NCBI RefSeq assembly: GCF_000799735.1
Contig: NZ_JUHH01000001.1
Location: 682,001-746,000, forward strand
Length of the DNA stretch: 64,000 nt
Source: Methylotenera sp. G11
GTDB taxonomy: Bacteria; Pseudomonadota; Gammaproteobacteria; Burkholderiales; Methylophilaceae
Reading direction: 5' to 3'
Shown: positions 36,899 to 43,190 of the stretch, piece after piece
Position numbering within the stretch: the first letter of the stretch is position 1
Layout: the number at the start of each line of letters is the position of its first letter
Position numbers and translations under genes: made by a program
Notes under the pieces: generated by a model
The model's input: only the letters and a program-made list of their open reading frames with translations
The model's database searches: none
What the model was told of the DNA's origin: nothing

Positions 36899-37147
36899 AT
36901 GCCAAACACCATTAATCAAAATGAAATCAATATGCTGCGTGCAGAATTAGAGCTGCTGATGCGTGAGCGACAAGCCCTGCTCAAGATTGCCGGGGTCGCC
37001 GCAGGGCTCATCGCAGAAATGGATAGCCATGAACTTCCGATTGCTACTGTAGAAGCAGCAGATCTGCTTGCAACATCAATCAACAGCCTAAGTGAAGAAA
37101 CATTGCAGGATGCATTAAGCGCCGTCAATGCCGAAATCGTTGGATAA
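36899..37147 (+). CDS. Small hypothetical helical protein (82 aa)
   Basis: The family is not recognised. It is predicted largely helical: an N-terminal coiled-coil-like stretch INMLRAELELLMRERQALLKIAG, a small-residue segment AGVAAGLIAEM, then an acidic C-terminal half. It has no signal peptide, cysteines or membrane segment. The ribosome-binding site is weak. It is 40 bases upstream of the efflux outer-membrane gene on the same strand and could be the first gene of that operon. Codon composition resembles the neighbours, which supports it being real. Confidence 0.5.
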   Translation: MPNTINQNEINMLRAELELLMRERQALLKIAGVAAGLIAEMDSHELPIATVEAADLLATSINSLSEETLQDALSAVNAEIVG

Positions 37148-38765: not shown

Positions 38766-39830
38766 ATGAATCGTAAACTGACCATCATTATTGGCTTACA
38801 GGCATTTTTAATTGTAGTCTTATTCTGGGTTCTCGTGTTTTACGGTAAAGACGAATTTGAAGCCATGACACAGCAGTCAGAAGAGGAAATCGAAACGCCA
38901 AGCCGCGTTGTGACTGAAAAAGGCGCGACGATTATCAACATCAGCGCTGCCGCCCAGAAGCAGAGCGAAATCACCACCAGCCAACTGGCTCCCGGCAAGC
39001 ACCAAAGCAGCGTCAACAGTTATGGAAGCGTCGTCAGCATCGACACGCTCATTGACCTTCGGTCACGCTACCTGGCAGCAAAGTCCGACATCGAAGTGCT
39101 GCGCACTGCACTGGCATACAACAAAAATGAGTTTTTACGCTTACAGACCCTGAATCAGGATGACAAAAACGTTTCGGATAAAGTCGTGGCAGCAGCCAGG
39201 TCAAATATCAAAGCAGATGAGGCAAAAATAGCAGCTGCCGAATCCAGCGCAAAAAGCATCACGGACAGCATGCGCCAGATGTGGGGAGAGACCCTGACCC
39301 AGCATGCGACCCAGCTCGAAAAAAGTGAATTGCTGCAAAACCTGATCTCCAATCAGGAAGTGCTGATACAGATCACCCTTCCGTTCGATGCCGCAGAGCC
39401 AGGGCAGAATAGCAGCATCATGATTGCTCCGACAGCCGTGCCAAGCCAATCGATTCGCGCATTATTCCTTTCACGCGCCCCAGCAAGCAGCACTACGATC
39501 CAGGGCAAAACTTATTTCTATCATGCCAAAACCAGGGCATTGCGTGCAGGCATGCAAGTGAATGCGGTGAGTGCAACATCCAGTAAGGTAGATGACGGCG
39601 TCATTATTCCCAATGCAGCGATCATCTGGTATGCAGGCAAATCCTGGGTTTACAAAAGAACCGCTGATGAGAAATTCAGCCGCATTCCGGTAGCCGCCGA
39701 TATTGAGGTTGGAAACGGCTGGTTCTATCAGGGCAACTTGGAACCCGGCGACCAGGTGGTCACCAGCGGCGCCCAGCTACTGCTATCCGAAGAATTCAAA
39801 TCACAGATCACCAATGAAAACGACGACTAA
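38766..39830 (+). CDS. Periplasmic adaptor (membrane fusion) subunit of an RND efflux pump
   Basis: A 354-residue protein with one N-terminal membrane anchor (LTIIIGLQAFLIVVLFWVLVFY), an alpha-helical hairpin (about 110-190, DIEVLRTALAYNKNEFLRLQ .. VAAARSNIKADEAKIAAAESS), a beta-barrel region and a C-terminal membrane-proximal domain (GDGV-type VDDGVIIPNAAIIWYAGKSWVY, NLEPGDQVVTSGAQLLLSEEFKSQ). It should bridge the RND pump and the TolC-like duct. Metal-binding Met or His clusters as in CusB are not seen. Its last codons and stop (…ENDD, TAA) lie inside a 28-bp repeat unit, suggesting that its 3' end has been replaced by repeat sequence. Confidence 0.85.
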   Translation: MNRKLTIIIGLQAFLIVVLFWVLVFYGKDEFEAMTQQSEEEIETPSRVVTEKGATIINISAAAQKQSEITTSQLAPGKHQSSVNSYGSVVSIDTLIDLRSRYLAAKSDIEVLRTALAYNKNEFLRLQTLNQDDKNVSDKVVAAARSNIKADEAKIAAAESSAKSITDSMRQMWGETLTQHATQLEKSELLQNLISNQEVLIQITLPFDAAEPGQNSSIMIAPTAVPSQSIRALFLSRAPASSTTIQGKTYFYHAKTRALRAGMQVNAVSATSSKVDDGVIIPNAAIIWYAGKSWVYKRTADEKFSRIPVAADIEVGNGWFYQGNLEPGDQVVTSGAQLLLSEEFKSQITNENDD

Positions 39831-40000
39831 ATTGTTAAATTTAGGAGGAGTCTCAGTGGAGACTAATATAGCGAAGCTATGTTATGTCGGAGCTAAAATG
39901 ACGATTAATATAAATAGCCCACTCGTCATTTCGGTGCAGACTAATGCGACAAAGTCGCGTTACGTCGGAGCCAAAACGACGACTAAATTGTTAAATTTAG
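39817..40000 (+). repeat. 78-bp-period repeat with covarying hairpins between the adaptor and RND genes
   Basis: A 28-bp segment at 39817-39844 recurs exactly at 39973-40000, that is 156 = 2 x 78 bases later. Two 49-bp units at 39856-39904 and 39934-39982 are also 78 bases apart and are similar. Each unit contains a hairpin (39861-39888 and 39939-39966): an outer stem GAC/GTC and TAA/TTA with a one-base bulge, and an inner stem ATAGC-GAA-GCTAT in the first, GCGAC-AAA-GTCGC in the second. Four of five inner pairs differ by compensating changes. The 28-bp segment ends in another palindrome, CTAAATT-GTTA-AATTTAG. In one frame the period equals 26 codons and the repeats read as related peptides (TTTKLLNL .. 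YVGA), but it is not likely to be a gene. Confidence 0.75.
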
Positions 40001-40061
40001 CAATGATTACTGCGACTCAATTGCATCACGAAACCATCGTCAAACCGGAGGCCAGCCAATC

Positions 40062-43000
40062 ATGATGTCGGCTTTAGTACGCTTCTCTATCCGCTTCAGC
40101 GGCGTCATCATCGGCCTTGCTACACTCGTTGTTTTATATGGCTTTTATAGTCTGAACCACAGCAACCTCGACGTGTTCCCCGAATTCGCGCCTACCCAGA
40201 TCATCATCCAGACTGAATCGCCGGGCCTTTCTGCAGAACTGGTCGAGAGCCTGGTCACCCAGCGCATTGAAACCAGTATTGCCGGCACGGTCGGCATTGC
40301 CAGCATGCGCTCGCAATCCATTCCCGGCCTCTCTATCGTTACGATCATTTTTAATGAGAAAACAGATGTTTACCGTAACCGCCAGGTAATTGCAGAACGC
40401 CTATCCACATTAAACAACAAATTACCGCAGGGCATTACCCCTAACATCACCCCGCTCACCTCATCCGCCAGCACCGTACTCGGCTTCGGTGTGACCTCTG
40501 AAAGCCGCAGCCTGACAGAATTAAGGACCCTGGTAGACTGGACTATCGTGCCACATTTAATGGCAATACCCGGTGTTGCCGATGTCAACGTGTTTGGCGG
40601 TAAGATACGCCAGCTTCAGGTACAGGTTGAGCCTGAAAAAATGATCAAATACGGCATTTCCCTGTTACAGGTTGAAGATGCCGTAAAGAAAGCGACCGGA
40701 GTGCGTGGCAATGGCTTCATTGAAAATAAAAATCAGCGTATCGTCATCAATACGGAAGGCCAGTCCACAACCGCCGATAAACTGGCAATGGTTGCACTGC
40801 TGCATAAAGATGGACAAACCATCAGGCTAGGTGATATCGGTAAAGTGATTGAAGGCGCGGTACCATCCATCAGCGCTGCTGCCATCAATGAAAAAACCGG
40901 CGTATATCTCTCAGTCCAGGGTCAACTGGGCGCCAACACGCATGGCGTAACGCTCGCCATTGAAAAAGCGCTGCAAGAATTGAAACCCACCCTGCAGGCG
41001 GAAAATGTAACGCTGCATGAGGGCCTGTTCAGGCCTGCCAACTTTATCGAGGTGGCAATCGAAGGTGTCCGCACCGATATCCTGGTCGGTTCAGTGCTGG
41101 TGATTACCGTGCTGTTCCTGTTTCTGTTCAATGTGCGCACGGCTTTCATTTCAGCTACGGCAATCCCGCTCTCCCTGCTCACCGCTATCGTAGTCATGAG
41201 CTACTACAACATCGGGCTGAATATCATGGTATTGGGCGGCCTTGCAATCGCACTCGGCGAGGTTGTGGATGATGCGATTATCGATACCGAAAATATATTC
41301 CGGCGCCTGCGCGAGAATCGCACCCTGGCAGCACCGCTGCCAACTTATCGGGTTGTGTTCGATGCGTCGATGGAAGTCCGCAGCTCCGTCGTCTATGCAA
41401 CGATTATCGTGGTCCTGGTATTCATGCCGCTGCTGACCTTGAGCGGGGTTGCAGGTAAATTGTTCGCGCCGCTCGGCATCGCCTATATCGCCGCCATCAT
41501 GGCTTCTTTACTGGTAGCGTTAACACTGACACCGGCACTATGCTACCTGCTGCTCGGCAACGCCAGGCTGGAAACAGAAGACCCGCCAATGATACGCATC
41601 ATCAAAAAATGGTATGTCTCTACACTGGTGAAAATCGAAGCCCACTACAAACTGATACTGGCCATAAGCTTCATGCTGATGGCGATTGGCCTGGGCATGC
41701 TGCCTTTATTCAAAAACCAGTTCATTCCCGCACTGCATGAAGGCCATTACATCATGCATATGACGGCAGTGCCCGGCACATCCGAACAGGAATCCCTGCG
41801 CATCGGTAAAAAAGTATCTGCAGCCATCCGCAGCATTGATGGTGTCAAGACCGTGACGCAATGGGTAGGCCGTGCACCCAACGGGGCAGATACTTTCGGC
41901 ACGCATTACAGTGAGTTTGAAATCGAGATCGGCGCCGTTTCCGGGCCGGAACAGCGCCGCATCCTGGATGCGATCCGCGAGAAGCTTGGTGGTGAGCCCA
42001 TAGACCATGATGGTGATGGAGAAGCCGAAGCAGGTTTTGTCGGTGTCAATTTTGCCATCAACACTTTCTTGACAGAACGGATCGAAGAGACCATTTCCGG
42101 CTATGCCGCATCGACTGTGATTAATATTTACGGCCAGGACCTGGATGCACTGGACAGGGATGCCAGCGCGATTGCCGGCATTTTAGGCAGCATAAAAGGT
42201 GCCACAGACGTACTGGTACAATCCCCGCCGGGTACACCGCAGTTGGTCATGCGGCTGCGTACTGAAAAAATGGCCAGGCTGGGCCTGCATCCAACCGATG
42301 TGCTGGATAGCATTCGTGCCGCATACGAGGGTGTTCCGGCCACCCAGGTATATGAAGGCAACCGGGTCATCGGCGTCAGCGTACTGCTCGCCCCTGAAGC
42401 GCGTGATGATATTCAGGAAGCCGGCAATCTGCCATTATTCAATGCTGACGGCAAATTGATCAGGCTGCGTGATGTTGCCGATATTGTGCAGGAAAACGGC
42501 CGTTCCAAGATTCTGCATGCCGGTGCCAAGCGCATCCAGACCGTAACTGCCAATGTAGTGGGCCGCGATATCAGTGCATTTACCGAAGAACTTAAAGAAA
42601 AATTGAGGACCGACCTGACGCTTTCACAAGGCGCATACCTGGAGTTTACAGGTGCTGCCGAAGCGAATGCAAAATCCAGGGAAGCGCTGATCCTGCAATC
42701 CCTGCTAGCGGGCGTCACGGTATTCCTGATGCTGTATATCGCATTTGGCCGCCTGCGCAACCTGCTGCTGACTTTCGCAAACCTGCCTTTTGCGCTCATT
42801 GGCGGCGTGCTGGCCGTCATGTTTACCGGCGGCTGGATTTCACTGGGTTCACTGGTCGGCTTTGTCACCCTGTTCGGTATCACCTTACGTAACTCGATCA
42901 TGATGATATCGCATTACCAGCACCTGATTGATGCAGAAAACTGCGTATGGGGAATAGACACCTGTATCCGTGGCGCATCAGAGCGGCTGCCATCTATCCT

Positions 43001-43190
43001 GATGACTGCGCTGGTAACGGCACTGGGGCTGTTGCCTTTAGCCGCCGCCAGCGGCCAGCCTGGGCGCGAAATCGAAGGCCCGATGGCAACCATCATTGTC
43101 GGCGGCCTGGTGACATCCACCATCCTGAATCTGCTGATCCTGCCAACGATCATGCTGCACTTTGGCAAGTTCGAGCGGCGTCAGGTTTGA
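40062..43190 (+). CDS. RND-family efflux permease (CzcA/CusA-like, heavy-metal-type subgroup)
   Basis: A 1042-residue inner-membrane proton-driven pump with the expected 12 membrane segments and two large periplasmic loops (about 30-330 and 555-850). The N-terminal motif LDVFPEFAPTQIIIQTESPGLSAELVESLVTQRIE and the TM4 segment GEVVDDAIIDTENIFRRLREN (about 398-418) place it in the CzcA-like branch rather than the AcrB drug branch. The charged TM4 residues probably carry the proton relay. The substrate is unknown: no metal chaperone or sensor gene is nearby. The start is ATGATG at 40062, after the repeat array, with GGAGG 12 bases upstream. Confidence 0.9.
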   Translation: MMSALVRFSIRFSGVIIGLATLVVLYGFYSLNHSNLDVFPEFAPTQIIIQTESPGLSAELVESLVTQRIETSIAGTVGIASMRSQSIPGLSIVTIIFNEKTDVYRNRQVIAERLSTLNNKLPQGITPNITPLTSSASTVLGFGVTSESRSLTELRTLVDWTIVPHLMAIPGVADVNVFGGKIRQLQVQVEPEKMIKYGISLLQVEDAVKKATGVRGNGFIENKNQRIVINTEGQSTTADKLAMVALLHKDGQTIRLGDIGKVIEGAVPSISAAAINEKTGVYLSVQGQLGANTHGVTLAIEKALQELKPTLQAENVTLHEGLFRPANFIEVAIEGVRTDILVGSVLVITVLFLFLFNVRTAFISATAIPLSLLTAIVVMSYYNIGLNIMVLGGLAIALGEVVDDAIIDTENIFRRLRENRTLAAPLPTYRVVFDASMEVRSSVVYATIIVVLVFMPLLTLSGVAGKLFAPLGIAYIAAIMASLLVALTLTPALCYLLLGNARLETEDPPMIRIIKKWYVSTLVKIEAHYKLILAISFMLMAIGLGMLPLFKNQFIPALHEGHYIMHMTAVPGTSEQESLRIGKKVSAAIRSIDGVKTVTQWVGRAPNGADTFGTHYSEFEIEIGAVSGPEQRRILDAIREKLGGEPIDHDGDGEAEAGFVGVNFAINTFLTERIEETISGYAASTVINIYGQDLDALDRDASAIAGILGSIKGATDVLVQSPPGTPQLVMRLRTEKMARLGLHPTDVLDSIRAAYEGVPATQVYEGNRVIGVSVLLAPEARDDIQEAGNLPLFNADGKLIRLRDVADIVQENGRSKILHAGAKRIQTVTANVVGRDISAFTEELKEKLRTDLTLSQGAYLEFTGAAEANAKSREALILQSLLAGVTVFLMLYIAFGRLRNLLLTFANLPFALIGGVLAVMFTGGWISLGSLVGFVTLFGITLRNSIMMISHYQHLIDAENCVWGIDTCIRGASERLPSILMTALVTALGLLPLAAASGQPGREIEGPMATIIVGGLVTSTILNLLILPTIMLHFGKFERRQV

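Follow-up and report, generated by a model that had tools for sequence, protein, structure and literature searches.

The stretch of DNA analysed here, a window of 64,000 nucleotides from Methylotenera sp. G11 (NZ_JUHH01000001.1, positions 682,001-746,000 of the forward strand; coordinates are given within the window), contains the genes for an RND efflux periplasmic adaptor and an RND pump and, at 39817-40000, a repeat array at the junction between them (Table 1). The 82-amino-acid open reading frame that heads the RND genes (36899-37147) has no Pfam match. A preliminary description of the array had noted a 28-bp block recurring exactly 156 bases apart and two related 49-bp units placed 78 bases apart, all parts falling on one 78-bp lattice. 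These observations are borne out: AAAACGACGACTAAATTGTTAAATTTAG agrees at 28 of 28 positions at 39817 and 39973, a 23-nt degenerate core of the longer units matches twice in the window against no match in 100 shuffles, and the lattice is exact. The better parse is one of five pieces, T-E-T-E-T, where T is the 3' end of the adaptor gene, starting at the adaptor's AAAA, and E is an imperfect palindrome of about 46 bp with a variable inner hairpin, such that one period consists of 34 bp of T followed by the 44 bp of E that precede its terminal AAAA. Only two identical blocks had been noticed because the middle T has diverged. Both genes remain whole at this junction, as the array disrupts neither the end of the adaptor nor the start of the pump.

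Table 1. Features of the adaptor/pump junction in Methylotenera sp. G11
Feature	Coordinates	Strand	Basis
RND efflux periplasmic adaptor gene	38766..39830	+	open reading frame; RND_mfp 6e-13, below curated cut-off
T1, first target copy, contains adaptor stop codon	39817..39850	+	28/28 identical to 39973-40000; AAAA start as at other loci
E1, first palindrome copy, AAAA at its end	39851..39898	+	covariance model 39850-39900, 65.1 bits, 6e-18
T2, second target copy, diverged, from AAAA of E1	39895..39928	+	78 bp after T1; AAAAYGACGAYTAA in common
Foldback, AAATGACGA (39896-39904) against reverse complement TCGTCATTT (39923-39931), reaching left end of E2	39896..39931	+	sequence; pairs in predicted fold; family-wide tendency
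E2, second palindrome copy, inner hairpin differs from E1	39929..39976	+	covariance model 39928-39978, 72.8 bits, 2e-20
T3, third target copy, from AAAA of E2	39973..40000	+	28/28 identical to T1
RND pump gene, CusA/CzcA type, intact	40062..43190	+	ACR_tran 1e-220; TIGR00914 2e-195, below curated cut-off

E keeps a conserved hairpin. It reads roughly TTTCAGTGCAGRCTAAYGCG, then a variable hairpin, then CGYGTTAYGYCGGAGCTAAAA, its consensus starting with TTTCAG and ending with CTAAAA, and the outer arms (TTTYAG.../...CTAAAA) pair as terminal inverted repeats, with conserved mismatches and one bulge that break the symmetry. In an alignment of 107 distinct copies, standard pairs fill 94% of the pair cells, and cells in which both partners have changed number 324 as against 98.5 in shuffles, while shifting the partner by 1-3 columns lowers the pairing to 26-49%. 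Because the model guided this alignment, the figures lean in its favour, but a model-free seed alignment gives the same result. The array stretch likewise folds much better than shuffles (z -6.1). Within the window Rfam matches only tRNAs, and at 39700-40100 nothing up to an E-value of 10. Two known kinds of repeat were rejected: a CRISPR array, the stretches between the E copies being copies of one host sequence and not different spacers, and an integron attC site, whose GTTRRRY/RYYYAAC outer boxes are lacking, most copies of E having GTTAYGY with the box inside the stem.

The distribution of E was followed with a covariance model built from 16 copies. Beyond E1 and E2 this gave no credible match within the window, and DNA and pattern searches of the Methylotenera sp. 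G11 genome found nothing besides the adaptor/pump locus, so that the many dispersed copies for which a search of the organism's own genome had been suggested are absent there. Of 399 genomes from the order 96 carry E, representing 50 of the 159 genera, and these counts are lower bounds because at most 14 candidates were scored per genome; among close relatives, where 97 candidates were scored, it is present in 24 of 61 genomes, other loci included and a few of the matches weak. Copies number about 1-15 per genome. In a sample of 274 genomes of the class, the only matches came from Methylotenera sp. G11 and one weak case outside the order. A strict pattern run over 84,980 species had yielded only 6 stretches, a limit of sensitivity lifted by the covariance model. 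BLAST against plasmid and phage records did not match E, nor did viral contigs yield a match.

Being dispersed over the order and present at several loci in the genus, E is clearly not a one-off duplication of the kind proposed as the alternative outcome, a repeat with no further copies and no conservation. The same evidence bears on the reading of the array as a local tandem duplication or in-frame coding repeat, devoid of mobility. An open frame at 39703-40065 in the list of reading frames does span the array, and the 78-bp period could be taken as the 26-codon coding period originally suggested; that frame is real, but the period is 79 bp in the relatives G006 and G002, so the frame is not kept there, and with E elsewhere in 50 genera this reading is effectively refuted by the dispersed copies and hardly deserves credence.

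The host genes at other loci include, as named by eye from their translations, nuoD, ruvC, metK and nucleotide-sugar epimerases, and E lies in sense orientation at gene ends and in antisense orientation at gene starts. This arrangement argues against a strand-specific role as RNA and for a DNA passenger, tolerated because the duplication described below restores the gene. Consequently, although the strong RNA fold and a position conserved in part of the genus would suit a riboswitch or other regulatory RNA acting locally on the RND operon, we consider such a function very improbable, given the reversal of orientation, the spread of E over 50 genera with copies at ftsW/murG and at many other genes, the many species without E at the RND operon and the lack of any Rfam match even at an E-value of 10.

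Several individual loci have features of their own. At L085, L094, L095, L074 and L101 (genomes G079 and G297) E lies inside a longer dispersed repeat, CTTTGCTCGTGCAAAGAA...CACGCCCCGC, and has seemingly spread with it. At L054/L068 (G059:C19, about 88150) it is flanked by two copies of an apparent tRNA-Ala gene about 200 bp apart, one a 62-bp fragment and the other complete. In Sulfuricella sp. T08 and one relative (L062 and L082), the sequence on the left of E is reverse-complementary to the end of the gene before it, and the two together form a long terminator-like hairpin right before E.

Two gene junctions can be compared in the empty and the filled state. In many species of the genus the gap between adaptor and pump is 6-11 bp, corresponding to an empty site, whereas one or two E with T copies are found in G006, G002 and G011, more weakly in G030 and G010, and also in Methylotenera oryzisoli; in still other species the gap is of intermediate size and E cannot be recognised in it. 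Because E recurs at this junction in much of the genus, inheritance with loss accounts for part of the pattern. Likewise, ftsW and murG overlap or abut in G252, G160, G323, G006, G054, G145 and G221, whereas in G184, G198, G263, G073, G118, G233, G293 and G352 E lies between two copies of the first ~17 codons of murG. In G365, G041 and G176 and, as judged by eye, in G079 and G297, E is placed at the ftsW end and another stretch serves as T. Such different T stretches point to separate insertions at one gene junction. At L179, L197, L199, L200 and L204 the duplicated murG start together with E forms a mini-ORF after ftsW, which, where its sequence was read, ends on the true murG start codon or a few bases from it, as though handing on translation.

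The host DNA around E carries a distinct footprint. Comparison of 150 bases on each side for 106 copies from 51 genomes revealed a direct duplication around 58 copies (48 of 90 loci, in 36 genomes), the threshold being a score that 0.4% of random sites within these loci attain; the 48 copies without a duplication may be old. The duplications usually start exactly at the terminal AAAA of E (when the comparison is extended into E, 30 begin at the first A and a few more within three bases), and in the native target the base before AAAA is mostly G or C. The distance from the AAAA to E is spread over 34-135 bp, with a median of 75, and is not fixed. Where the recognisable duplication stops before E, the remainder resembles the right flank slightly above expectation (3.69 vs 2.63, sd 0.24), and the duplication may thus once have reached E. 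A copied stretch that spans a gene start or end regenerates the host gene intact, and tandem arrays of the form T-E-T-E-T are found. The palindrome, furthermore, often continues outside E into the duplicated flank: at the three nearest positions beyond E, Watson-Crick pairing amounts to 0.68, 0.59 and 0.47 as against 0.35, 0.27 and 0.26 (z = 8.4, 7.4 and 5.0), an example in the window being the pairing of TCGTCATTT with AAATGACGA.

The copies of T have themselves diverged in a particular manner. Pairs with a clear frame, the only ones quoted because an automated count took the wrong frame in several GC-rich loci, differ almost only synonymously, with synonymous against other differences of 9 to 0 at L072, 4 to 0 at L075 and 3 to 0 at L086 (murG), and of 8 to 0 at L064, 7 to 0 at L109 and 6 to 0 at L067. 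This bias may mean that the fragment is translated as a coupled mini-ORF, that the copies exchange sequence, or that one of them was acquired from a relative by recombination. At the adaptor/pump junction the divergence is unequal, and since T1 and T3 are identical while T2 differs, a second process such as conversion is needed.

Taken together, we hold it highly probable that E is a mobile element, and probable that the array represents two insertions of this small, non-autonomous palindrome. Weighing against this reading are the copies that lack a duplication, the spread of the distances, the unequal divergence of T at the adaptor/pump junction and the share of the pattern owed to inheritance. 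As to its mode of movement, entry at AAAA, a long and variable duplication and extension by foldback are the trace expected of target-primed copying followed by foldback and template switching. Insertion would start where the 3' end of a target TTTT pairs with the terminal AAAA of an E template, either RNA or single-stranded DNA; the hairpin would be copied, followed by a short foldback onto the target strand, and a restart of synthesis, or a second nick, 35-135 bp away would generate the long duplication. T-E-T-E-T arrays could then arise by further insertion or by slippage between T copies. We propose this route tentatively, as the leading candidate among several. Eukaryotic non-LTR retroelements that use target-primed copying enter at an A/T run matching their own end and leave variable target duplications. 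The likeness of E to them is a functional analogy only, E being a tiny bacterial palindrome to which no reverse transcriptase is linked, and the idea that a mobile palindrome, target-primed with foldback and template switching, constitutes a tiny bacterial analogue of SINE-like retroelements is, if attractive, somewhat more speculative still.

The main rival to target-primed copying would be a very wide staggered cut, E being a miniature inverted-repeat transposon that a DDE transposase mobilises in trans, leaving a target duplication of the usual kind but of great length. This would account for the inverted repeats at its termini (TTTYAG../..CTAAAA), for the empty sites and for the duplications on its flanks. 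Target duplications of DDE transposases are, however, near constant in length, whereas those of E vary from 34 to 135 bp; in addition, the palindrome runs on into target DNA, and a search of unpaired arms in 14 genomes, made with exact degenerate patterns only, found no gene-carrying element with E ends. We regard this route as unlikely. Neither this search nor the Y1_Tnp comparison discussed below yielded an enzyme or autonomous partner of E.

A different enzyme, the Y1 (RAYT) transposase, would be implicated were E a REP/REPIN-like hairpin moved as single-stranded DNA. REPs are hairpins of 20-40 bp with an unpaired GTAG or CGTC tag at one end (PMC3733652), and the GTAG and CGTC super-families of REPs and REPINs, with their RAYT transposases, usually attain high copy number (PMC3733652, PMC2817692, PMC3116915). 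E resembles them as a short, non-coding, intergenic and hairpin-forming palindrome, often clustered and sometimes overlapping a gene end, and its hairpin, made asymmetric by a bulge and conserved mismatches, as well as its intergenic and tandem occurrence, would suit such an enzyme. Yet E is about 46 bp long, low in copy number and without a terminal GTAG/CGTC tag, a CGTC/TGTC string occurring only within the paired right arm, and its duplications from AAAA are long, whereas transposition of the IS200/IS605 type makes no larger target duplications (PMC2817692). Nor does Y1_Tnp track E: it was detected in 24 of the 32 E-rich genomes but also in 19 of the 32 that lack E, and was undetected in Methylotenera sp. 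G11 and in the E-rich G056, G062, G072, G127, G159, G287, G297 and G401. The lack of a detectable Y1 transposase in Methylotenera sp. G11, together with the low copy numbers, indicates that E is not of the REPIN/RAYT kind, a relationship to which we accord only a slight probability. The original suggestion of a family of small palindromic insertion elements therefore survives in its general form, with dispersed copies, variable inner stems and filled and empty sites, but loses the proposed kinship with REPINs on the grounds of tag, copy number and Y1.

The RPE of Rickettsia (105-146 bp), here compared by description only, are inserted in frame within proteins, and whether they duplicate their target is listed as unknown (PMC2229807). 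They share with E the character of palindromic selfish inserts tolerated in or beside conserved genes and sometimes leaving open frames; E, in contrast, lies at gene boundaries, the gene being restored by duplication. Bacterial MITEs (Correia/NEMIS, ERIC, RUP) are mostly about 100-200 bp and often end in TA (PMC2229807, PMC10969869). Like E they are non-autonomous, with inverted repeats and target duplication, but E is about 46 bp, has TTT/AAAA ends and generates a long, variable (34-135 bp) rather than a short, fixed duplication. Thus small dispersed palindromes of the REP, RPE and MITE types are already known, while for the sequence and footprint of E we could find no description in the searchable literature, a result that, with thin coverage of subscription papers, is not proof; none of the literature matches to the core sequence concerned a bacterial repeat, and no relevant account of repeats at ftsW/murG or of long target duplications appeared.

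To our knowledge, small palindromic repeats are common in bacteria, and the insertion route of most of them is unknown because they leave little footprint. The footprint of E is clear: the element enters at AAAA, duplicates a long stretch of variable length and has its palindrome extended into target DNA, and this makes the mechanism testable. E also illustrates how tight essential operons, such as those containing ftsW/murG or the RND genes, can take up an insert with both genes left intact, and, if the target-primed reading is true, it would be the variable target duplication of 34-135 bp that spares the host gene.
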